The translations under genes and the position numbers were made by a program. The notes under the pieces were generated by a model. That model was not told where the DNA came from and ran no database searches. It was given only the letters and a program-made list of their open reading frames with translations. From a virus: a DNA stretch of 36,971 nt. Position 1 is the stretch's first letter; each line of letters opens with the position of its first letter. Where the stretch lies: IMG/VR virus record IMGVR_UViG_3300045256_000037, positions 1 to 36,971 of that record; one strand, written 5' to 3'. Below, piece after piece: positions 2,842-36,826 of the stretch.

Positions 2842-3684
2842 ATGGGTGAGAACAGCAAAATCGAATGGTGCGATCACACGTTCAATCCGTGGATCGGGTG
2901 CCAGAAAGTATCGCCCGGCTGTGATAACTGCTACGCCGAGGCGATGATGGACCATCGGTATAGCAAAGTGCAATGGGGTCCGCACGGCGAACGGAAGCGC
3001 ACGAGCAAAAACTACTGGAACAAGCCTCGCCAATGGAACAAACAATCAGCGGGCTTCATGGCGACGCATGGCAGGAATCAGCGCGTATTCTGCGCCTCTC
3101 TAGCCGACATATTCGACAATCGCGTGCCGTCAGAGTGGCGTGCCGATCTTTTCGCGCTCATTAGCGAGACTCCGGGGCTCGATTGGCTGTTGCTGACGAA
3201 GCGGCCTGAAAACATGGCTGAAATGCTGCCGAGCGATTGGGGAAGCGGATGGGCGAATGTCTGGCTAGGAGTAACGTGCGAAGATCAGGACCGAGCCAAT
3301 CATCGCATCCCGATCTTGCTTACAACTCCCGCTGTACTCCACTATGTGAGCTACGAGCCTGTGTTGGAGTTGGTGGATTTCTCACGCTGGCTTCCTATCG
3401 CGCCTCGCGGCCAAGGGTGGGCGCCAGTAAAATGCGAAGCCGCCTATGGCGAGAAGCGGCCGCGTCTGAATTGGATAATCGCCGGTGGCGAGTCGGGAAG
3501 GGACGCGCGGCCAGCGCATCCCGATTGGTTCAGGAGCGTGCGCGATCAATGCGCTGCGGCGGGCGTCCCGTTCTTCTTCAAACAATGGGGCGAGGTCAGC
3601 AATAGGCACTCGGGACGCTTGCTCGATGGCGTCGAGCACAACGCCATACCATCATCACGAAAGGAGAAATTAGATGAAAATTAG
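2842..3684 (+). CDS. DUF5131 (phage Gp37/Gp68 family) protein
   Basis: A 280-residue protein matching the phage Gp37/Gp68 (DUF5131) family over its whole length. Diagnostic segments are the N-terminal NSKIEWCDHTFNPWIGC, the cysteine cluster GCDNCYAE, FCASLADIFD, LLLTKRPENM, ISYEP-like VSYEPVLE, WIIAGGESG and the C-terminal PFFFKQWGE. The cysteine arrangement and barrel-like pattern suggest a relation to radical-SAM enzymes, but the biochemical function of the family is not established. A ribosome-binding site (gaaaggg) precedes the ATG. The end overlaps the next gene by 11 nt. Confidence 0.88.
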   Translation: MGENSKIEWCDHTFNPWIGCQKVSPGCDNCYAEAMMDHRYSKVQWGPHGERKRTSKNYWNKPRQWNKQSAGFMATHGRNQRVFCASLADIFDNRVPSEWRADLFALISETPGLDWLLLTKRPENMAEMLPSDWGSGWANVWLGVTCEDQDRANHRIPILLTTPAVLHYVSYEPVLELVDFSRWLPIAPRGQGWAPVKCEAAYGEKRPRLNWIIAGGESGRDARPAHPDWFRSVRDQCAAAGVPFFFKQWGEVSNRHSGRLLDGVEHNAIPSSRKEKLDEN

Positions 3685-5916: not shown

Positions 5917-6152
5917 GTGAGCGGCGCGGCATGAAGCGGGAAGCGGCGGCGGATTATTGCGATCTGTCGCTGTCCGGCTTCGACGATTGGGTTTCCCGTG
6001 GATTGTTGCCGGGGCCGATGCCGGGAACCAAGAGATGGGATCGCAAGGCGATAGATTTGGCTCTGGACCGTCTTTCCAAGATCGAGCACAGTGGGTCCGC
6101 CTATGACAGGTGGAAAAGTGCGGGTTCGCCTGAGACACGTCAAGCCCGTTAG
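5913..6152 (+). CDS. Excisionase/AlpA-like DNA-binding protein
   Basis: A 79-residue protein with a winged-helix pattern typical of MerR/AlpA/Xis proteins. A helix-turn-helix spans about residues 8-30 (EAAADYCDLSLSGFDDWV), followed by the wing LLPGPMPGTKRWDRKAID. It lies directly upstream of, and overlaps, the integrase gene, where a recombination directionality factor is expected. The start is either GTG at 5913 (GTGA overlap with the upstream stop) or ATG at 5931. It could instead be a small regulator of the operon. Confidence 0.65.
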   Translation: MSERRGMKREAAADYCDLSLSGFDDWVSRGLLPGPMPGTKRWDRKAIDLALDRLSKIEHSGSAYDRWKSAGSPETRQAR

Positions 6153-7197
6153 AAAGGTGCTCGCTTCCGGCGAGACTGTCACCTATTATTATCACCGGGT
6201 CACGGGCCGGAGGGTATTTGGCGTTCCGGGCTCCGATGAGTTTCTTAAGAGTTACGAGACCGCCGGCCGCCCTCAAGATCACGTCACGCCGGACACGATA
6301 GCCGAAATCGCCCTTGGGTTCCAATCGTCACCGACATTCTCAAACCTTAGCGAACGAACGCGGCGAGATTATGCGAAGCACCTTAAAGCCATAGTCGCGA
6401 GGTTCGGAGCGGCAGAACTCGAAGTGTTCGAGGACCACCGCATTCGCCGCGACATCATGGAATGGCGCGACGGGCTCGCCAAGAGATCGAAACGGCAAGC
6501 CGACTATGCGCTAGCCGTTCTGAGGCGGATGTTGCAGTGGGCTTACGATCAGGGACGGCTTTCGATCAACCACGCGACCAGAGCCGGGAAGCTATACACG
6601 GCAGATCGCTCCGACAAGATTTGGGAGCCGCACCATATTGACGCCTTCATGCGGGCCGCGAACGAAACCTTGAAGCAAGCCCTTCGTCTCGCGCTCGACA
6701 CCGGGCAGCGGGAAGGCGATCTTCTCAGGCTCACTTGGACCGCATATGACGGTCAGGCACTCACGCTGAGACAGAGGAAGCGTGGCCGCAAGGTCTACGT
6801 GCCGCTCACGCGCGAATTACGGGCGATGCTCGACGCCATGCCGAGACGCGCCGCAACCATCCTCACGAACCAGCATGGGCTTCCGTGGACAGAGAGCGGC
6901 TTCAGGGGGATGTTCGGTAAGGCAAAGGAAAAAGCTGGCATCGAAGATCGCACGTTTCACGATCTTCGCGGGACATTCGTGACCCGCGCTTCGCTGAGAG
7001 ACCTCACGCCGCAACAGATCGCCACCATCACGGGGCAGTCGGTCAAGGACGTGGAGCATATCATTGACACCTACCTTGCGAGGACGCCCGAACTCGCCAA
7101 GCGGGCTATGCGGAAATACGAAGGCAGAACAAAAAATGGAAACCAGAGTGGAAACCGAGCCGGGGCGGGAGGCCGCAAAGAGGACCTAAGTTCTTGA
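6103..7197 (+). CDS. int: Tyrosine-family phage integrase
   Basis: Integrase catalysing site-specific recombination between attP and a host tRNA-Phe gene. Counting from the GTG at 6091, a SAM-like core-binding domain (about 78-160) precedes the catalytic domain. Its pentad is readable: Arg207 (TGQREGDLLRL), His290 and Arg293 (FHDLRG), Gln316 (TGQS, where His or Trp is more usual) and Tyr328 (DTYLAR). I chose ATG 6103. GTG 6118 has a better Shine-Dalgarno (aggtgg) and is a good alternative. The stop lies 7 nt before the att core, and the last codons contain two of the TGGAAACC repeats. Confidence 0.92.
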   Translation: MTGGKVRVRLRHVKPVRKVLASGETVTYYYHRVTGRRVFGVPGSDEFLKSYETAGRPQDHVTPDTIAEIALGFQSSPTFSNLSERTRRDYAKHLKAIVARFGAAELEVFEDHRIRRDIMEWRDGLAKRSKRQADYALAVLRRMLQWAYDQGRLSINHATRAGKLYTADRSDKIWEPHHIDAFMRAANETLKQALRLALDTGQREGDLLRLTWTAYDGQALTLRQRKRGRKVYVPLTRELRAMLDAMPRRAATILTNQHGLPWTESGFRGMFGKAKEKAGIEDRTFHDLRGTFVTRASLRDLTPQQIATITGQSVKDVEHIIDTYLARTPELAKRAMRKYEGRTKNGNQSGNRAGAGGRKEDLSS

Positions 7198-7651: not shown

Positions 7652-8236
7652 CTAGGCGGCGGCGCTAGGTTTTAAGCTCGCGGCTTGCTTCTCGATCTTG
7701 ATGATCTGGCGCCCAATAAACTCGGCAATGGGCGGGGCTACTGCGTTGCCAATGAGTCGCCCTCGTCTACCGTCCATCCGTCCGGGAAACCCATCAGTCT
7801 CTCGCACTCTGTCCAGGTCAAGTTTCTGGCCACATAGAATTGGCCGGTCGGTATGGCCTCCCTGATGTCTGCCAGTCTGGGCGCGTATCGTGGGGCTATA
7901 GCTCGTTGCCTTGGTATACCCAAAGCCGCCGCGACGCTGAACCAGAAGCGGAGTGTCTGTGACAAACTCTCCTGGAATACCGGGTCTAGCTCGCGCCCTG
8001 CCCTCTGCTCGCGGCGCATGATTCCCAAGCAATTGGCTGCCGTTAGAATAGAACTGATAGGAAAGTTCCGATCTAAGACTTGCGACAACGAAAACTCTTT
8101 CGCGGTGACGCCTCAAAATCCGCTGACAATGCGGGTCGATCTCGCAGTGAAAGACCGGCTCCATGCCGGCACGCTGGAATCCGAGATCAAAACCGCCTAT
8201 TCCTGCGAAGAAGGAAGCGAAACGCATGTCACACAC
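7652..8236 (-). pseudogene. Decayed DNA cytosine-C5 methyltransferase
   Basis: The N-terminus carries motif I of Dcm-type enzymes (FASFFAGIGGFDLGF) and motif II (CEIDPHC). The chain then jumps from RILRRH straight to RERVFVVA, a motif VIII-like block. The Pro-Cys nucleophile and Glu-Asn-Val motifs between them are missing, implying an in-frame deletion of roughly 100 codons. Near the end, the good match LTWTECERLMGFPDGWT lies in another reverse frame (about 7760-7830), while motif X (RLIGNAVAPPIAEFIG) returns to the first frame, so two compensating frameshifts are present. With the catalytic cysteine gone, it cannot methylate DNA. Confidence 0.8.
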
Positions 8237-28443: not shown

Positions 28444-29601
28444 TTACTGATCGGCCGTGGCGGCGAAGTAGCCGACTGCCATGCCCCACATCTTCAAGGC
28501 TCCAGTCGAAGTCTTGAAGAAATTCTTGCCGACGCCGTAGGCCATCTCGATGCCGACACCCTTGCGGAAGCCGTAATCGTTCTCGATGAGTTGCGTCGGT
28601 TTGGGCAACTGGCCCCACACTTGGCTCAACGCGCCCTGTCCGCACAGAAACACAGGAGCGATGTCGATGCCCGAACCGCCGACGCCGGGGATCATGTTGA
28701 ACGCATCAAGCTCGGGCACCTTGGTGATGACCATGCCCTCGTAGATGAGGTCGCCGGAGCGGAACAACGGGTTCTCCTTCCAGCTGTCACCCTCGCGGGC
28801 GCGTGCTTCGCGATTGGCATTCTGGACCGCGGTGTCAGACTCGATATCACGGAACTGACGCGAGCCGACAAACACGACATACCACTCGGCGTTAACGTCA
28901 TCTTCCGTCATGTACGGCGTGATGGCCGGCTGACTCGCCGTAGTGGCCTCCGCGATGCGTTTGAGTAGCATCAGGTTAGACGACGTGAGCTTGCCGTTGG
29001 TTGCATCGACATTCGCCGCCGACGTGGCAAAGTTACCCGAAACCAGGTTAGACTTCAGGTCGCCGAACAAAAGTCTGTCGGCGTTGTCAGTGACATACTG
29101 ATTCTTTTGGGCGGTAGTCGCCTGGTTGAACAGGATGCCATTGACCGTCTGCCCAGAGTCTGAATCGAGTCCAGCCGGAGCGGCCTCCGAAGGGATCGCC
29201 GCCAAAGCCTGACAGATATCGTCACGCTGACGGCGGAGTCCCCACTTGGTAAGTGAGGGACGCGATTCGGCCATAGGATCGAATGACGCCTTCTGAATCT
29301 GGTTCTTCTTCCAGACCACGGCGTTGCGTGCCCAGTCGATCCAGAAGCGGCAGCCATAATTCTGGAACTGCTCCTCATTGCCAACCAGGGTGCCGGAGCC
29401 GACGCCGGTATTCGACAACGTGAGCCCGAGGTTGACGTTGATCTGCTCGCCGCCCGTCTTAAGCTCGTAGTGGCGGCAGATGATAGACATCGCCGAGTTG
29501 CCCATGTACCGCGAGAAGCGGTTCATGCGCTGATAGTCGCTCCAGATGTCTTTACGCCATTTGATTACTCTATTGTTCGATTGGGTGGTGGTTTCGGCCA
29601 T
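28444..29601 (-). CDS. Major capsid protein, N4-gp56 family
   Basis: A 385-residue protein recognisable as the N4-gp56/DUF4043 capsid family: N-terminal KWRKDIWSDYQRMNRFSRYMG, SIICRHYELKTGGEQINVNL, WIDWARNAVVWKKNQIQKASFD, then WYVVFVGSRQFRDIESD, and a closing FLCGQGALSQVWGQLPKP and GFRKGVGIEMAYGVGKNFF. It builds the icosahedral HK97-fold head. Ribosome site aaggag. Upstream is the scaffold gene, and two putative decoration genes follow. No N-terminal extension of prohead-protease type is visible. Confidence 0.92.
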   Translation of the reverse strand: MAETTTQSNNRVIKWRKDIWSDYQRMNRFSRYMGNSAMSIICRHYELKTGGEQINVNLGLTLSNTGVGSGTLVGNEEQFQNYGCRFWIDWARNAVVWKKNQIQKASFDPMAESRPSLTKWGLRRQRDDICQALAAIPSEAAPAGLDSDSGQTVNGILFNQATTAQKNQYVTDNADRLLFGDLKSNLVSGNFATSAANVDATNGKLTSSNLMLLKRIAEATTASQPAITPYMTEDDVNAEWYVVFVGSRQFRDIESDTAVQNANREARAREGDSWKENPLFRSGDLIYEGMVITKVPELDAFNMIPGVGGSGIDIAPVFLCGQGALSQVWGQLPKPTQLIENDYGFRKGVGIEMAYGVGKNFFKTSTGALKMWGMAVGYFAATADQ

Positions 29602-29649: not shown

Positions 29650-30606
29650 TCACGCAGCCGATTTGCGTCGTCGCCTTGTTCCGAATTCGAAGAGTTCCTC
29701 TTCCGTCATCGCGCCGGTTTCGCTGCCGCCTGAGTTGGCCGGCGTTCCTTGAGCGCGTGCAATTGACGGTGGAAGTTGAACCGTTGTGTTTGGCCGGGAC
29801 GGATCGGCCTTCGCCCGCGCCGCTTCGACTGCCTTCGCCAGGAAGGTTTCGTCTTGCAGAGCGGCTTCAAATGCCTTGGCGAGGAATTGCTTGTCGCTAA
29901 GCGCTTCTTCGCGCTTCTTCTGGACGTAGGCATCGAGATCGGGGCCGATTTCGCGCTCCCGCTCCCGCTTCTGATACCAGCGAACGAGATTGGGGCCGAC
30001 GGTGGCCGGCGATTGCATGATGAGATCGTAGTCTTGGCGTCTACCCGCCGCGACTTCGGTCAATATCTCCTCGAACGCCTTGCGAACCGTATCTGGGCCG
30101 AATGTCGCTTGCGCCGTCTCAAGGCTCAATTCCATGAGCCCGGTTGACATCTCGCGTGCGAGTTCGGCTTTCGTCTGGGAAAGCGCCCCCTGAGGATCGG
30201 CAAGCGGATCGATAGGGTCTGGCCTGTGCTGCTCGGATTTTGACGCGAGCAGCCGTTCCATTGCCTGGACGCGGGCCAGAGCTTCTTGCGCCGCACGTGC
30301 TGCGGCCTCTCTCTCTTGCTCCGCTTTCTGCCGGCGTTCCCTCTCATCAAGAAGATCGCGGAGAATACCGCGCGCTTCCGTGCTGAGCGGAGATTCGCCT
30401 TTCGGCTCGTCCTTCGATTCCGCCTTCGCTTCGCCGCCCTCGGCCTTTGTTTCCTCGGCCTTGGGTTCCTCTGCTTTCGGTTCCTCTTGGGATTCCGGTT
30501 TGGCTTCCTCAGTTGGTTCCTTTATCGGCTCCTGATCCTCATCGATTGAGGATGCCGGAGCTTCGGTTCCAGACGCGAACAGTTCTTCCTCCGTGAGAGT
30601 CGTCAT
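29650..30606 (-). CDS. Scaffolding protein
   Basis: A 318-residue protein starting at ATG 30606 with site aaggacgg. The N-terminal 75 residues are extremely acidic and low-complexity (repeated EEPKAEE-type units), followed by long charged coiled-coil helices (about 85-125 and 215-270) and a basic C-terminus RRRRKSAA. This is the layout of capsid scaffolds placed just before the capsid gene. TEEELF occurs at both ends (residues 5-10 and 301-306). The basic tail may bind the capsid, as in other scaffolds. Confidence 0.85.
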   Translation of the reverse strand: MTTLTEEELFASGTEAPASSIDEDQEPIKEPTEEAKPESQEEPKAEEPKAEETKAEGGEAKAESKDEPKGESPLSTEARGILRDLLDERERRQKAEQEREAAARAAQEALARVQAMERLLASKSEQHRPDPIDPLADPQGALSQTKAELAREMSTGLMELSLETAQATFGPDTVRKAFEEILTEVAAGRRQDYDLIMQSPATVGPNLVRWYQKREREREIGPDLDAYVQKKREEALSDKQFLAKAFEAALQDETFLAKAVEAARAKADPSRPNTTVQLPPSIARAQGTPANSGGSETGAMTEEELFEFGTRRRRKSAA

Positions 30607-30719
30607 GACTCTACCGTCCTTTCTCTCGATATCGTTGAGATGCACGAATGCGCCCGTGTTGCGCTGCGGGCGAGTCAGCGAGCGGGACCGTTTAACGCCT
30701 GTCCCGTGCGGCGAACCCG
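30607..30719 (-). other. Gap between ATP-grasp and scaffold genes
   Basis: A 113-nt gap, longest in the head module. It contains two possible reverse-strand hairpins, GGGAC/GTCCC and GCCCG/CGGGC. These may process or stabilise mRNA for the highly expressed scaffold and capsid genes. No promoter is recognisable. Confidence 0.35.
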
Positions 30720-31979
30720 TTATTCCGTTCTAAGCCACTGGCCCTGCTCGGCTAGCGTCTCGATCTCTTCCTTGGCGTCGTCGAGCGCGTCGGCATCGAC
30801 CTTCAGGCCGTAGCATTCGACGCGCGATGCAAGTTCCTTGGCCTGCTCGATCGCCTCGTCCATATTGTCGGCGCACGCGACCACCGATCCAAGTTGCGTC
30901 GCACCAGGCCCCTGCGGGACGACATAATCCTGTCCGTCAATCCGGCACCATCCGATCAGCTTGACGTGATCGATGATTTCCGGCGGATAGTTCACGGCCA
31001 CCCAGTCGGTTTGCACAAGTTCCGACTCCAGGAATACTTGCGCACCCCACTTGGCCTTGTATTCCGGCTCTATCAATTTCCCGCCGGCGCCCTCGTAGAT
31101 GATCTCGGCGATATTCTCGATCATGAGCTGGTAAAGTTCAGACGGCGGGCACCCGGCCCGGCATGTCGGATCGATCAGATAGGGCGTTCCGTCTTCCGTG
31201 ACGCGGATTTCCGTCGAGAAGAACGAGCGATAGCGGTATGATGCCAGCGTCGATGCGAGCTTGCCGTTGACGAACGTCACCGCCTCAGGCAATTCGTCGT
31301 ATAGCGCAGCAGTGCCGAGATAGGCCTGGTTCTTGACTTCGAGTCCCGCCATACCGATCGACGGGAATTCTCCATCGACGCAATAGCCGTCGTATCCAAT
31401 TTCTGTGGCTGGGCGGATCGGCGCCTCAACCACGAATTTCATGATCCTCTTCTTGCCGCCAAGCTTGGATTCGAGACGATCCAGCCATTGCTCAGACAGG
31501 CGCCACGACGGCGAGTGAAACGACTCCATGTCGCCCCGCGTGGCGTCGATCTTGACGTAGCGATCGTCGTGCGTTCGGAGATAGCGCTTGAGTTCCTCGA
31601 ATCCCTTGAGTTCGACATAGGGCGCGATGGGCAGCCCGATGCGCTTGAAATGCTTCTTGGCTGCCGAGCGGTAAAGCTCCAACTCCTCGCCCCGGCGAGC
31701 GCCCCATACCCTCTTGCCAATGGATTCAAGATGCAGTTGCAGTGCTCCCTCGCCCACATCGGGGAACACAAACACATCGGCGTCGTCTATGTAGTCGTAG
31801 ACATTCTCGGCGCGCTCGACGCCGGGAAGGCCGTCACCGAGATGCAAGTCCTCGGATTTCGCCGTCGTCTCCCAGTGCGCATAATAGAGCACCCGTCCGA
31901 AGTCCTTGGCGAGCCGTACGGCCCAGGACGGAAACACCCCATTGTCGATTACAAAGGCGCATTTGGTGGGGTATTTCAT
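30720..31979 (-). CDS. PurD-like ATP-grasp protein in head module
   Basis: A 419-residue protein with the order of an ATP-grasp carboxylate-amine ligase. An N-terminal Rossmann-like pre-grasp domain (about 1-110; IDNGVFPSWAVRLAKDFG, ADVFVFPDVGEGALQL) precedes the ATP-binding lysine block YVKIDATRGD (about 141-150). A strand with Glu (VVEAPI), and the metal/ligand block FFSTEIRVTEDGTPYLID followed by PTCRAGCPPSE, come next. The latter parallels the N-x-R-x-G-D-P-E ending of PurD, with Thr in place of Asn. It likely joins an acid to an amine using ATP; substrates are unknown. It overlaps the LysM gene by ATGA. Confidence 0.8.
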   Translation of the reverse strand: MKYPTKCAFVIDNGVFPSWAVRLAKDFGRVLYYAHWETTAKSEDLHLGDGLPGVERAENVYDYIDDADVFVFPDVGEGALQLHLESIGKRVWGARRGEELELYRSAAKKHFKRIGLPIAPYVELKGFEELKRYLRTHDDRYVKIDATRGDMESFHSPSWRLSEQWLDRLESKLGGKKRIMKFVVEAPIRPATEIGYDGYCVDGEFPSIGMAGLEVKNQAYLGTAALYDELPEAVTFVNGKLASTLASYRYRSFFSTEIRVTEDGTPYLIDPTCRAGCPPSELYQLMIENIAEIIYEGAGGKLIEPEYKAKWGAQVFLESELVQTDWVAVNYPPEIIDHVKLIGWCRIDGQDYVVPQGPGATQLGSVVACADNMDEAIEQAKELASRVECYGLKVDADALDDAKEEIETLAEQGQWLRTE

Positions 31980-32749
31980 CGGAGCGACATAAGAATTCTC
32001 GCCGCTTCTTGCGGCGTCAATAGCTCGATCTCTTTAAAGCCAAAGGGTATCTCTCTGGGCAGATTTCCGGGTATTGACGGTGACCGAGTTGGGGAAACGG
32101 CGGGTACGTTTAGCGGCGGCATACCCTCTTCGTGACCGTACCACAGAGGATCAATGCCAGAGTCGAACGCCGCCCTATTACGGGTCCTTGCTTTTATCGC
32201 TGAGGCTAATCGTCTCGCCATCTCCGGAGTTGGAGAGATATCTCCCGCAAATGTCGGCTCCACCCTTGGTGCGGGGCCTCTGGCCGGAGCCTCTCCGCCC
32301 AATCCCATAATCGCCGTCGAGAGATAGTCGGCGATCGTCGGTTCATCCTTACCGCTTAAGACTCGTACCGGATCGATCATCCGGTGTATCTTCCCAAGCG
32401 GGGTCGACGAGAAGTCGAATCCCTTCGCCTGCGGTTCGTCCGGCGGAGGCGGCGGAGGCGGCGGATCGGGAATGACAACCGCCTGCATCGGAACCTGCCC
32501 AGACCGTTTCATGGCATCGTATTCGGACTGAAACAGAACTGGAGCAGCGGAAAGTCCGCCAGACTCCTTGGGAGTTTCCGGCTTTGAAGCCGGGGGAGTC
32601 TCTTCCTTATCGGGGATTAGGAGAATATTACCTTCTCGGATACGGTTGACATCCCTGATCCCATTCGCGCTCGCCAGCGCCGGAACCGTCGTGCCGAATC
32701 TCTTTGCCAGTCCGCTGAGGGTGTCTCCCCTGCGAATCCGGTATTCCAT
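31976..32749 (-). CDS. LysM-domain protein with proline-rich linker
   Basis: A 257-residue protein. Residues 1-46 are one LysM domain (YRIRRGDTLSGLAKRFG, LASANGIRDVNRIREGNILLIP), which binds peptidoglycan or chitin-like glycan. A Pro-rich linker (eight consecutive Pro around residue 98) and a mixed 150-residue part follow, with a closing segment LLTPQEAARILMSLR. No signal peptide or catalytic domain. It is encoded in the head module rather than the lysis module, so it may be a minor virion protein anchoring the particle or its DNA to the wall. Confidence 0.8.
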   Translation of the reverse strand: MEYRIRRGDTLSGLAKRFGTTVPALASANGIRDVNRIREGNILLIPDKEETPPASKPETPKESGGLSAAPVLFQSEYDAMKRSGQVPMQAVVIPDPPPPPPPPDEPQAKGFDFSSTPLGKIHRMIDPVRVLSGKDEPTIADYLSTAIMGLGGEAPARGPAPRVEPTFAGDISPTPEMARRLASAIKARTRNRAAFDSGIDPLWYGHEEGMPPLNVPAVSPTRSPSIPGNLPREIPFGFKEIELLTPQEAARILMSLR

Positions 32750-32751
32750 CT

Positions 32752-32940
32752 CTATTCCCTGATAGAATGCAGCGCATGCGCCATATGCTTCGCACTGCTC
32801 TTATGAGCAAAGCGTTTGCCCTTGTCAGCTTCGACGAATTCGCGCGCAACCTTCTGCGGAATCCCGGTGCGCTTGGCCGCCGCCGGATCGTGCGCAACCA
32901 TCTCCATGAGCCGGTGCTGCTTGGCTGATTTGGACGGCAT
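32752..32940 (-). CDS. Small basic phage protein (MPSKSxxQ family)
   Basis: A 62-residue basic protein starting MPSKSAKQHRLM, with VAHDPAAAKRTGIPQKVAREFVEADKGKRF. Close patterns occur in small proteins of other tailed phages near portal or head genes; their function is unknown. A longer form from ATG 32979, which overlaps the stop of the SpeD-like gene (TAATG), is possible, but the family normally begins at MPSKS. Confidence 0.75.
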   Translation of the reverse strand: MPSKSAKQHRLMEMVAHDPAAAKRTGIPQKVAREFVEADKGKRFAHKSSAKHMAHALHSIRE

Positions 32941-32978
32941 GACGATAACCCTGTTGTTCGCGTGTGTGACGGAATCCA

Positions 32979-33320
32979 TTACGGCAATTCCAGCATCGAA
33001 TAGTTGGCTCGGTAAACCTTGAGACCCACCTCCTCGATTACGTCGCGAGCCGTACCGTGATCGAAGTCCTTACATGAGGAAATCCTGAGATAGGCGCCGT
33101 GATGCTCAGGCCACGTGTCAACCAGGATCGCGCTATCGGTAAGCGGCAGCACAAGAGTGATCCCAATCTCGGTTCCGGCCCGCCAGCACGCCGGAGCCCC
33201 GGCAGGCGTCATGCCGATCCGCGCCGCCATGTCGAACAGCATCTTGCGCCACTCGAGTTCGTCCTTGTTTCCCCGCAACGAGAACGATAGCTCGTGCATG
33301 CACTTGCCGAACGCTATCAT
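32979..33320 (-). CDS. SpeD-like (S-adenosylmethionine decarboxylase fold) protein
   Basis: A 113-residue homologue of bacterial pyruvoyl AdoMet decarboxylase, which makes the aminopropyl donor for spermidine. The centre SAILVDTWPEHHGAYLRISSC aligns without gaps to the bacterial ES-H-L-x-I-H-TWPE-Y-G-Y-A region. By Thermotoga-style numbering Ser63 (pyruvoyl precursor) and Cys83 are kept, position 55 is Thr rather than Ser, Glu62 is Asp, and the processing His68 is Asp. It may therefore process itself differently or decarboxylate another substrate; phage SpeD relatives acting on ornithine or arginine have been reported, from memory. ATGA overlap with the Zn-knuckle gene. Confidence 0.8.
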   Translation of the reverse strand: MIAFGKCMHELSFSLRGNKDELEWRKMLFDMAARIGMTPAGAPACWRAGTEIGITLVLPLTDSAILVDTWPEHHGAYLRISSCKDFDHGTARDVIEEVGLKVYRANYSMLELP

Positions 33321-33433
33321 TCGTCGTCGTACTCTTCCGGTTCGTCAACCGGATCGGACGCATCCTCGTCATCCTCGGGATCATCCTCAGGGATGTAATC
33401 AGGGCAATCCGGCTGGGGGCATCTGGGGCACAT
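33317..33433 (-). CDS. Tiny Zn-knuckle protein with acidic tail
   Basis: A 38-residue protein starting MCPRCPQPDCPDY, a compact three-cysteine knuckle, followed by an almost purely Asp/Glu/Pro tail (PEDDPEDDEDASD, EPEEYDDE). It starts inside the portal gene in another frame, and its stop overlaps the start of the SpeD-like gene (ATGA at 33317-33320), so ribosomes can pass from one to the next. The 80-nt space has no other candidate. The acidic tail may mimic nucleic acid or bind a basic partner. Confidence 0.5.
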   Translation of the reverse strand: MCPRCPQPDCPDYIPEDDPEDDEDASDPVDEPEEYDDE

Positions 33434-35348
33434 TGCGGATCGAGAACCTTCCGGGGATTGGCGGTTGTCCAGGCAGTTGTCCAGGCGGCATCTGAGGCAT
33501 AGGCGCTGCACCGGCCAAAGCATTGGCCATCACTCCCGGCGGCGGCATCGCATCGGGATTGGCAATCGGCGGCAGAGCCTCCGGCCTTTGTAGATCGGCA
33601 ATCGTCGCGTTCGCCTTGGCGAGGCTCGCAAAGGTGTCGGCGAGCTGCTTGAGCGCCTTGGTTTTCTTCCCGCCAACATCCGCCCGCTTGGACTCGATCT
33701 CAAGCATTGCCACTTGCTGCTTGAGCGGATTCGGCTGTCGCATGCGCTCAAGTATCCTCTGCTTCACGTCGGTTTGCAGCGGCGCAATCTCAAGCAGGAT
33801 ATCCGGAGGCACCCCAGCCACGCCTTTGAGCATCTCGTATGCCTCGGTGTACACCGTCACATTGTCCGGCCCTTCGTCGATCTTGATATCCACGTCGAGC
33901 GAGCCGAGATGGTTCACGATCTGCGGGCGGCCAAGTTCGTCGAGCGTGAGCCCGTTAAGCTGGATGAATTGCGCCACATCGCTGTCATCGGTGACGCGTA
34001 TCCACCGCTCCCCTACCCAATAGCGCTGAATGAGATTCCAGATCGCGCGATACACGCGCAGCTTCCACCCTCGGTAGGCGATCAGATACGGCCCGATATT
34101 GGCTAGCCCAGCCCGCTGCGCCAGCGCCATCGCCCTGCCGCTCTTGATGCCATCCATCCCGGCGAGCGCATTGTTGGGGGCGAAGGCCTGGATGCTCTCC
34201 TTGGCATCCTCCATCAACTTGATGTTGGAGCTATAGTCGAACGCCTGATCGTCGCGCCTCAGCTCGGCGCCCGGATTCTTCTCGATCCACCCGTCGGCTC
34301 GGGCGAATTCCTGACGAGCGCGCTCGACATCATCGACCGCATTCTTGTCAGCGATAATCCGGCGGCTGTTGGCAATGAACAGAGCCTTGGACGCCCGCTG
34401 GTTGATTTCGTCCTGATCAGAGCGCAGCTCGCGGACGAACCCGTATCTGTCGCCCTCGTGATCGACATAGGCCGAATACAGGATCACATTCGGGCGCGTG
34501 CGACCCTTCTCGTCGATCAGAAACGATTTGCCGGACAGAAGCTCAACATCAGCCGCATAAAACGTCCACCACCAATCGCCGTTCGCGTAATAGAGATGAT
34601 AGACGAGCACGACGGTGTCGGAATCGGCGTCGTACCATTTATACTCGCGATCGGAGAATAGCTCGGCGTCAAGCCCGCGCGAGCGGAGCGATCTAATCTT
34701 GTCCGCCTGATCGGGGAACATCTCAGCGACAATCTCGGCATCCATCCACTTGCAGATGCCGAGATAGAGCGCATCCGAGAAATCGGCCCGGAACGAACGA
34801 GGATCGTAGAATACCGTGTCTGGATCGACGATAGCGAGGCCGACATCTGGATCGCCAGCGTCGCCGCGCACAAGGGTAAGCTCGACGCCGCCGATGCCCT
34901 CGATGGCGCCGTTGCGCGCCGATTCGGCGCTGATCTCCTCCCAGCCCTCCGCGTCGAGCACATAATTGAGCGTCGCCGTGGCAATCGAGGCACCCTTGTC
35001 GTTCTTGGGGTGCCTCGGATACGCCTTGGGGTCCTGCCGCATCCGCTCAAGCACGCCGATCACCCCGTTGATGGCACGCGGCAAATAGGGCTTGGTGAGC
35101 GGAGGCTGACCGCGGCGGCGTAGTTCGCGCAGCTCCTCGGCCGTCCACATCACCTTGTGATAGTACCGGCGCGCCCGCCGCGCCTCCCAGCGCTCGGCGT
35201 CCTTGACGCTCTGGTAGGTGAGGAATTGCTTCCTCAGCCTGTCGATTGACAGCGGTCCGGATTCGTCCTGAGGCGGCGGAACCTCAGCCGGGACAAGAGA
35301 CGGCGCAAGATTGGGTCCTGGTTCGGCAAGTCCGATCATAGATTTCAC
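33399..35348 (-). CDS. Portal protein (P22 gp1-like)
   Basis: A 649-residue portal that forms the dodecameric DNA gate of the head. Family-typical blocks: TKPYLPRAINGVIGVLERMR, IEGIGGVELTL, IVDPDTVFYDPRSFRADFSDA, GFVRELRSDQDEINQRASKALF and KSGRAMALAQRAGLANIG. The Pro/Met-rich C-terminus (MPQMPPGQLPGQPP) is low-complexity. Slightly shorter than P22 gp1. Coupled by ATGA to the large terminase. Confidence 0.92.
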   Translation of the reverse strand: MKSMIGLAEPGPNLAPSLVPAEVPPPQDESGPLSIDRLRKQFLTYQSVKDAERWEARRARRYYHKVMWTAEELRELRRRGQPPLTKPYLPRAINGVIGVLERMRQDPKAYPRHPKNDKGASIATATLNYVLDAEGWEEISAESARNGAIEGIGGVELTLVRGDAGDPDVGLAIVDPDTVFYDPRSFRADFSDALYLGICKWMDAEIVAEMFPDQADKIRSLRSRGLDAELFSDREYKWYDADSDTVVLVYHLYYANGDWWWTFYAADVELLSGKSFLIDEKGRTRPNVILYSAYVDHEGDRYGFVRELRSDQDEINQRASKALFIANSRRIIADKNAVDDVERARQEFARADGWIEKNPGAELRRDDQAFDYSSNIKLMEDAKESIQAFAPNNALAGMDGIKSGRAMALAQRAGLANIGPYLIAYRGWKLRVYRAIWNLIQRYWVGERWIRVTDDSDVAQFIQLNGLTLDELGRPQIVNHLGSLDVDIKIDEGPDNVTVYTEAYEMLKGVAGVPPDILLEIAPLQTDVKQRILERMRQPNPLKQQVAMLEIESKRADVGGKKTKALKQLADTFASLAKANATIADLQRPEALPPIANPDAMPPPGVMANALAGAAPMPQMPPGQLPGQPPIPGRFSIRNVPQMPPAGLP

Positions 35349-36826
35349 ATGATGAGAATAGGATTCATCGAGCCGCTATCGTCGAGCGGACGGTAGCCGC
35401 TCTCGCGCTTCGGCTTGGACTGAGGCGGCTTCCGCCCCGTGACCATGTCATCGAGCATCAGCCCGATCAGGGACAATGCGTCCACCTGATCGTCATGGCG
35501 GCCGCCGGGGAAGGTGAGCAGCTCTGACCTGAGTTCGTCGGCCCACGCGGGTTCAGGCGGCAGATAGAGCCCGGACAACGCCATGCGCGCCCGGATCGAC
35601 TGCGCCCGCACCGCCTTTTCCCGCTTCGACGGATACGCCTCGCGTTGCACATAGACTTTTCTCTCGCGCATGCGCCGCTCAAGGAACGGCCCGAGGCTCG
35701 CCTTGATCTGGCCCCTCTCCTCGCCCCACTTGAGCGGCTTCCACTTGGCGATCAGATCGCAGAACGCCTCGATCGACACGTCGGGCCTTGCTTGGCGCCG
35801 CCATACGTCGAGCACGTACATCCGGCCAGACTGATCGAGTCCGACAACGATGTGCGAGGTATAATCGCCTCCGCCCTCGGTGACGGCATAGTCGCTCGCG
35901 CCGTAGACGGCGAGAGTGGCCGTATCGGGCGGAGTTTCGATCCGGAGCCACTCGTCGCGGAAATAGCCGCCCTCGTCTGGCGCCGGCGACTGCTGATACA
36001 GAGCGCTCCACATGCGCGGCATGGTGTTGGCACGGATGCGCTCCAGAGCATCCAGTGGGTAGGCCTCAGGCCACAGCGCCTCGCCGTCGTCGGATATGGC
36101 CTTGAGTTCGACGACTGTCCAGTCGTCAGAGCCGGATCGCAGCACCATGCCGGCGAGATCGTCCTCATGCGTCCGGTGCCCAATCAGGATGATCGCCCCT
36201 CCAGGTAGGAGCCGGTTATAAACGGACCCCTGATACCACTCCCACACACGCTTGCGCTCGGGCGCCGATTGCGCGTCCGCCCACGACCCCATTGGATCGT
36301 CGATGATCGCGATGTCGGCGCCGTGCCCGTAGATTTGCCCGCCGATGCCGAGCGCGTAGAATTGCCCGCCGGCATCCGTGTGCCACCTATTCTTGGCCTG
36401 GCTGTCCTCAGCCAGCCTGACTCCAGGGAACACCGCCCGATAGCGCGACGACTCAATCAGATTGCGCACACTGCGCCCGATATCAGACGCCGTCTCCGCC
36501 GTCGCCGACGCCGTGATGATCTGCCGCCCAGGCCTGCGCCCGAGCGCCCACGCCGGGAACCGACGAGCCGCCAGCTCCGTCTTTCCGTGCCGCGGCGGCA
36601 TCAGCAGGATCAGCCGATCAATCTCTCCGCGCTCGACGCGCTCCAGGTGCGCCGCGATCTCCCGATGGTGCCGCGCCGCCCGGTAATGCCCGCCGAACAG
36701 CCCGGCCGCGCCCTCATAGGTGTACTCAGTGAACGCTATCAGCCCCGTCCCCGCTTGCCAGCGGCGGCACATCTCCATTTGCAGCGCGTCTAATGGCGGC
36801 AATGAGTTCAGCTTGGCTCCATTCAT
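35345..36826 (-). CDS. terL: Terminase large subunit
   Basis: A 493-residue packaging motor and nuclease. Walker A MPPRHGKTE (76-84) and Walker B IAIIDDP (172-178) mark the ATPase, with the coupling block LIGHRTHEDDLAG after it. The RNase H-like nuclease has YGASDYAV, and its final acidic motif in GRHDDQVDALSLIG near residue 451. The start overlaps the small subunit gene by 101 nt. An internal Met (residue 17, at 36778) would shorten that overlap. Neither start has a strong ribosome site. Confidence 0.93.
   Translation of the reverse strand: MNGAKLNSLPPLDALQMEMCRRWQAGTGLIAFTEYTYEGAAGLFGGHYRAARHHREIAAHLERVERGEIDRLILLMPPRHGKTELAARRFPAWALGRRPGRQIITASATAETASDIGRSVRNLIESSRYRAVFPGVRLAEDSQAKNRWHTDAGGQFYALGIGGQIYGHGADIAIIDDPMGSWADAQSAPERKRVWEWYQGSVYNRLLPGGAIILIGHRTHEDDLAGMVLRSGSDDWTVVELKAISDDGEALWPEAYPLDALERIRANTMPRMWSALYQQSPAPDEGGYFRDEWLRIETPPDTATLAVYGASDYAVTEGGGDYTSHIVVGLDQSGRMYVLDVWRRQARPDVSIEAFCDLIAKWKPLKWGEERGQIKASLGPFLERRMRERKVYVQREAYPSKREKAVRAQSIRARMALSGLYLPPEPAWADELRSELLTFPGGRHDDQVDALSLIGLMLDDMVTGRKPPQSKPKRESGYRPLDDSGSMNPILIM

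Follow-up and report, generated by a model that had tools for sequence, protein, structure and literature searches.

What does a member of the S-adenosylmethionine decarboxylase (AdoMetDC, SpeD) family do among the head genes of a phage? The stretch of DNA analyzed here, referred to as the window, is one entire IMG/VR virus record of 36,971 bases, and its late operon encodes a SpeD-like protein of 113 residues. The preliminary description of this locus suggested either that a decarboxylase made together with the head feeds DNA packaging or that the fold has become structural, and it overlooked an ATP-grasp ligase gene in the same operon. Our comparisons reveal a clade of SpeD-fold proteins with Asp at position 68 and invariant Ser63 and Cys83. 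In dozens of phages this protein has been inherited together with a PurD-like ATP-grasp ligase, often within the head gene cluster or close to it.

A SpeD-family protein with Asp in place of His68

The SpeD-like protein is matched over residues 20-97 by the Pfam model AdoMet_dc (PF02675) at 36.3 bits (E 7.5e-9), above the curated cut-off of 25, and by PHROG 3125, "S-adenosylmethionine decarboxylase", at E 3.9e-5. Against the NCBIfam equivalog for adenosylmethionine decarboxylase (TIGR03330) it scores 19.6 bits, below the cut-off of 75.65. In searches of solved structures the single sequence found SpeD weakly (E 0.32), and a family profile found the Aquifex enzyme at E 1.4e-5 and the Thermotoga enzyme at E 5.5e-4. 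The AlphaFold model has a pLDDT of 95.2, and its best solved match is the Thermotoga AdoMetDC 1vr7, with a Z score of 14.2 and an rmsd of 2.7 over 108 residues (Foldseek E 8.5e-7). The SpeD homology put forward in the preliminary description is borne out by these matches, as is its gap-free alignment of the core with the Thermotoga enzyme. A check of the codons gave the residues it had named, Thr55, Asp62, Ser63, Ala64, Asp68, and Cys83, and the Thermotoga counterparts in the alignment are Ser55, Glu62-Ser63-His64, His68, and Cys83. The window protein also retains Trp70-Pro71-Glu72.

Like the class 1b AdoMetDC of Thermotoga maritima (PF02675), the protein has the family assignment, fold, length, and Ser63/Cys83 numbering of that enzyme; unlike it, the window protein has Asp68 for His68 and an ATP-grasp partner instead of spermidine synthase. 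Judged from its sequence, the ORF is a member of the SpeD family by every test but His68, the residue that marks the functional enzyme, in what appears to be a new partnership. The sole close relative of the window protein came from an identical 10-kb contig (L002), and a search of cultured phages with this protein returned nothing beyond weak matches to cyanophage SpeD.

Position in the head gene cluster

The tightly spaced late operon runs in the order terminase, P22-like portal, 68-aa ORF, SpeD-like gene, PHROG 16759 gene, LysM gene, 419-aa ligase gene, probable scaffold, and capsid (Table 1). The SpeD-like gene thus lies between portal and scaffold as first described, but the scaffold gene is not adjacent to it: three genes intervene, the last of which encodes the ATP-grasp ligase, third downstream of the SpeD-like gene with two others in between. 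The ATGA coupling noted earlier holds for the upstream junction with the 68-aa ORF, but the downstream junction is TAATG. Family matches to the 68-aa ORF were absent in PHROG and Pfam, and predicted promoters and terminators in the window did not exceed the level seen in shuffled sequences.

Table 1. Features of the late operon and sites within the SpeD-like gene (window positions)
Feature	Position	Strand	Basis or remarks
Terminase large subunit	35345..36826	-	PHROG 38, E 6e-108
P22-like portal protein	33399..35348	-	Pfam P22_portal, E 2.5e-88
68-aa ORF, Cys-rich then acidic; full ORF uncertain	33317..33523	-	ORF list; overlaps portal 3' end and SpeD start (ATGA)
SpeD-like protein of the His68-to-Asp clade, 113 aa	32979..33320	-	Pfam AdoMet_dc, AlphaFold model, 57 distinct homologs aligned
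Predicted self-cleavage site Asp62-Ser63 (GAT AGC)	33132..33137	-	Ser63 in 57/57 homologs; codons read
Asp68 codon (GAC)	33117..33119	-	Asp in 52/57 homologs, His in 5/57
Cys83 codon (TGT), the family's cysteine for catalysis and processing	33072..33074	-	Invariant, 57/57
75-aa protein, PHROG 16759	32752..32979	-	E 1.3e-17; begins within SpeD stop codon (TAATG)
257-aa protein, N-terminal LysM domain	31976..32749	-	Pfam LysM, E 1.5e-12; 4-nt overlap with ATP-grasp start (ATGA)
PurD-like ATP-grasp ligase, 419 aa	30720..31979	-	AlphaFold model, solved-structure match, invariant residues
Probable scaffolding protein	29650..30645	-	Position and acidic, helical composition alone; no PHROG/Pfam match
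Major capsid protein	28444..29601	-	Pfam Phage_capsid_3, E 1.4e-31

The preliminary description had asked whether the gene stays beside the portal gene in related phages. In general it does not: no AdoMet_dc gene was found in any of 85 records with related portals, made up of 80 viral contigs (35-49% portal identity, mostly partial records) and five cultured relatives. The SpeD-like gene is therefore an accessory gene of this head cluster rather than a head gene of the lineage.

In the early part of the window, a DUF5131 protein (2842-3684; Pfam E 7e-84) is encoded next to nuclease and HNH genes. A gene of the phage integrase family (6091-7197) indicates that the phage is probably temperate. 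A C5-cytosine methylase-like ORF (7652-8236) matches the first 42 family positions only and is probably truncated; it was the only hit among the early-region proteins scanned for DNA hypermodification, with no base-hypermodifying enzyme among them, and a hypermodification role was set aside.

Linkage to an ATP-grasp ligase gene

When viral contigs were searched with the 419-aa protein, two relatives of approximately 50% identity were recovered, each adjoining a SpeD-like gene. A profile search for the ATP-grasp protein in viral contigs then gave 80 loci, and an independent DNA pattern, [DE]S....DTW[PS][DE] with Cys83, gave 32 stretches, 31 of which contain a true SpeD-like ORF. The pattern match L089 is not a SpeD, and a bacterial match (L088) was dropped, as it covers 32 residues and the family profile does not match it.

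Outside the window the two genes are usually neighbors. The ATP-grasp gene is present in 28 of the 31 records with an Asp68 SpeD. Of 67 distinct ATP-grasp proteins for which 1.6 kb or more of upstream DNA is available, 47 are preceded on the same strand by a SpeD-like gene, in 30 cases at a distance of 90 nt or less (measured between profile edges). Wherever both occur they are co-oriented (75/75 loci). Set against the 85 portal-related records, the linkage to the ATP-grasp gene gives a Fisher p of 1e-23, a value that is indicative only, since the rows share ancestry. Of the 62 distinct ATP-grasp loci that exceed 7 kb, 36 have, within the DNA of their records, portal, terminase, or capsid genes with detectable similarity to our queries. 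The conserved linkage of the SpeD-like gene is to the ATP-grasp gene and not to the portal gene, and head genes lie nearby in many such phages. Our literature search found no report of an ATP-grasp protein paired with S-adenosylmethionine decarboxylase in phages.

The association is incomplete in both directions. Twenty of the 67 ATP-grasp loci have no recognizable SpeD upstream or elsewhere in their records, indicating that the ligase can do without SpeD; at these loci it is perhaps supplied from another source, the host for instance. Three records (L090, L091, and L118), possibly fragments, have an Asp68 SpeD and no ATP-grasp gene. In the 22-kb record L090 the Asp68 SpeD-like ORF (L090:3-287) is followed, a few genes downstream, by portal, protease, and capsid genes that belong to another head type. 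A His68 SpeD gene in Pseudomonas phage ZRG1 (L203:351-740) lies between ParB-like and DUF1441 genes and is possibly another SpeD near a packaging module.

The PurD-like partner

The AlphaFold model of the ligase has a pLDDT of 94.2, and its best solved match, GAR synthetase 2yw2, spans its whole length (Z 31.1, rmsd 3.1, 377 residues; Foldseek E 1.1e-20). The NCBIfam purD model matches the protein weakly (E 2e-6, 26.9 bits against a cut-off of 288), and PHROG gave no match. Residues expected in an ATP-grasp active site (K143, R148-G149-D150, E152, E185, E257, D270, and R274) are invariant in 68 ligase relatives. The fold and the conserved Lys, Glu, and Mg-binding acidic residues place the protein in the ATP-grasp superfamily, and the individual roles of these residues are assigned by analogy. 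The gene is under a median dN/dS of 0.16 (127 pairs). The partner thus resembles GAR synthetase (PurD) in its whole-length fold and intact ATP-grasp residues, and differs from it in sequence, with approximately 18% identity and a purD equivalog score below the cut-off. By analogy, it is an intact PurD-like enzyme of an amide-forming ligase type. Relatives of the ligase were not found in cultured phages and plasmids, and a search of 294 genomes from a single phylum, run at E 1e-30 with no positive control, detected no cellular homolog.

Another group of phage ATP-grasp ligases with a proposed amide-forming role is the R2K families of caudate phages, a clade marked by two lysines in the RAGNYA part of the fold and proposed to modify host proteins (PMC4431377). 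On that model, and considering the linkage to virion genes, the present ligase might modify a phage or host protein, with the SpeD-like enzyme supplying or trimming the tag. We consider this improbable: the family resembles PurD, which is a small-molecule enzyme, and the R2K Pfam model is not among the 25 families listed as matches for any of the 68 ligase family members.

Conservation and phylogeny of the Asp68 clade

Ser63 and Cys83, on whose conservation the preliminary description had made its reading depend, are present in all of 57 distinct SpeD-like sequences; at position 68, 52 of these have Asp and five have His. The DNA pattern search itself favored these residues, so a fair count comes from the 47 partners found via the ATP-grasp gene alone: Ser63 and Cys83 are each present in all 47, Asp68 in 42, and His68 in five. 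Most other positions vary among the 57. The typical family motif is ES-F-x-x-x-D-T-W-x-D; Thr55 and Asp68 are features across the whole family, and Asp62 and Ala64 of the window protein are minority states even inside it. The median dN/dS of the SpeD gene is 0.10 (12 pairs), indicating purifying selection. In a tree of 64 rows, built on 121 columns and having long branches, 51 of the 52 Asp68 rows share one side of a branch supported at 100/94. The reference phage SpeDs that we inspected (S-PM2, YS40, P2559S, HTVC109P, and ZRG1) all have His68.

These data bear on the suggestion that a SpeD fold devoid of catalysis now serves as a structural, scaffolding, or regulatory head protein. Loss of His68 and the position of the gene within the head cluster would fit such a change of role, and the prozyme of trypanosomes, a catalytically weak AdoMetDC paralog whose structure is listed among the solved matches to our model, would be a precedent. 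The suggestion is nonetheless disfavored because 57 distinct homologs under purifying selection all keep the catalytic Ser and Cys while most other positions vary; the 85 related head clusters that do without the gene and a partner of metabolic type also speak against it, and we regard it as quite unlikely.

The same positions argue about a true AdoMet decarboxylase, which would raise host spermidine for translation or packaging. Phages with true AdoMet decarboxylases exist, activity having been verified for the S-PM2, YS40, and P2559S enzymes (PMC9992855), and the window protein is a SpeD family member that has the Trp70-Pro71-Glu72 segment. Of its 57 relatives, however, 44 have Asp at position 72, and Pro71 is retained in just 28 and lost in 29. 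No spermidine synthase (PF01564) was found in 39 records (the window plus 38 related ones, many of which are fragments), for which a host copy could serve. Plain AdoMet decarboxylation is disfavored because of this absence, the loss of His68, and the changes at positions 71 and 72; with the NCBIfam score also far from its cut-off, we assign it little probability. His68 is described as essential to both self-processing and catalysis of the Thermotoga proenzyme (PMC10407285), and Asp68 might block both.

Apparent partner exchange and neighboring genes

A second SpeD lineage is found at six loci, with His68 in five and Asp68 in one, and it groups with the reference His68 SpeDs outside the main clade. 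The ATP-grasp proteins of these six loci fall inside a clade with 100/100 support that also contains Asp68-partnered ones, which points to an apparent exchange of partners as read from the two sets of sequences. As a SpeD-type enzyme recurs beside it, the ligase may well take the product of such an enzyme as its substrate.

At one locus (L189:3752-4984) an amidinotransferase-superfamily gene (Pfam ADI, E 2.8e-9) replaces SpeD and overlaps the start of the ATP-grasp gene by approximately 4 nt. The best solved relatives of its product are HsvA, the best match, and StrB-type inosamine-phosphate amidinotransferase, DDAH, and arginine:glycine amidinotransferase. The hsv operon uses an ATP-grasp ligase as well. 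As a functional analogy only, the hsvABC phevamine A pathway is an amidinotransferase cluster leading to an amine-type metabolite (PMC13123061); unlike the phage locus, it is a bacterial virulence operon in which SpeD is not reported, and the likeness comes from one phage locus. An amidinotransferase as a general replacement partner was rejected, L189 being the sole case in 45 records.

Two other kinds of gene recur at these loci. A GNAT acetyltransferase gene lies directly 5' of a SpeD-like gene at L110:331-882, and a similar gene is nearby at eight ATP-grasp loci. An O-antigen ligase/polymerase-like membrane protein is encoded upstream of the ATP-grasp gene at L161:2985-4190 and at ten similar loci (about eleven in all, the likeness being judged by eye).

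A possible two-enzyme pathway

Among the closest described systems are SpeDA and SpeDC, the pyruvoyl arginine and ornithine decarboxylases of phages and bacteria (PMC9992855, PMC10407285), which, like the present protein, include phage SpeD homologs found without spermidine synthase, the substrate of which has likely changed. SpeDA and SpeDC would be expected to have S63, H68, and C83, and SpeDC has diagnostic Gln, Thr, Phe, and Tyr positions; in the present clade S63 and C83 are kept and H68 is replaced. Also, SpeDA and SpeDC adjoin polyamine genes (speB, speY, hss, casdh/casdc), whereas here the neighbor is a PurD-like ATP-grasp gene in a phage head cluster. An arginine or ornithine decarboxylase of this type could act by itself, its gene being an auxiliary metabolic gene for increasing agmatine or putrescine, for example to neutralize packaged DNA, and the ATP-grasp gene a mere neighbor. 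Some phage SpeD homologs do decarboxylate arginine or ornithine, spermidine synthase is absent from the 39 records, and phage particles contain polyamines (PMC7226272), so that a decarboxylase made with the head might feed packaging, as first proposed. As an explanation of the locus, however, a lone decarboxylase is rather unlikely: linkage to the ATP-grasp gene is far stronger than linkage to the portal gene, SpeDA and SpeDC are expected to keep His68 (PMC10407285), and it is retained in pelagiphage HTVC109P, the one pelagiphage SpeD examined.

An even chance, in our estimate, attaches to a two-enzyme module of which the SpeD-like gene is one half, with a pyruvoyl decarboxylase yielding an amine that the ligase conjugates. 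By SpeD chemistry (PMC10407285), the proenzyme would cleave itself between Asp62 and Ser63, with Asp68 in place of His68, and Ser63 would thereby become the pyruvoyl group. The mature enzyme would decarboxylate a small amino-acid-type substrate, for which arginine, ornithine, or another amino acid seems likelier than AdoMet. By comparison with PurD, the ATP-grasp enzyme would use ATP to activate a carboxylate as an acyl phosphate and link it by an amide bond to the resulting amine. The product would be an amine conjugate made late in infection; DNA or a target in the host may be what it acts on, or it may serve as a tag.

A pairing of this kind has been described in bacteria, where PspA operons contain an AdoMet decarboxylase together with an ATP-grasp ligase that is a relative of glutathionylspermidine synthetase (PMC11237479); a polyamine-independent role of AdoMetDC is attributed to Li et al. 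2019, as cited in PMC11237479. Like the phage loci, PspA operons combine AdoMet decarboxylase with an ATP-grasp peptide ligase, in what seems to be a role apart from ordinary spermidine synthesis. Compared by description, they differ in belonging to cellular membrane stress, in their other partners, and in having a glutathionylspermidine-synthetase-type ligase rather than the PurD-like one found here.

Conclusions

In conclusion, the interest of this SpeD gene lies in its ligase partner and in the clade-wide Asp68 rather than in its position in a head operon. We put forward, as a tentative proposal somewhat less probable than the two-enzyme module in general, that late in infection an Asp68 SpeD-derived pyruvoyl decarboxylase and a PurD-like ligase, a pair found in none of the cultured phages searched, produce a new amine conjugate, which is possibly packaged with the DNA or used against the host. 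With two genes of about 0.35 and 1.3 kb, the proposal is easily tested, and the Asp68 clade would itself test whether Asp can substitute for His68 in pyruvoyl formation. Phage SpeD homologs are usually interpreted as polyamine boosters; if the proposal is true, the Asp68 clade and its ligase would extend the known functions of SpeD by a new chemical step, and many uncultured phages would make a small amine product late in infection.
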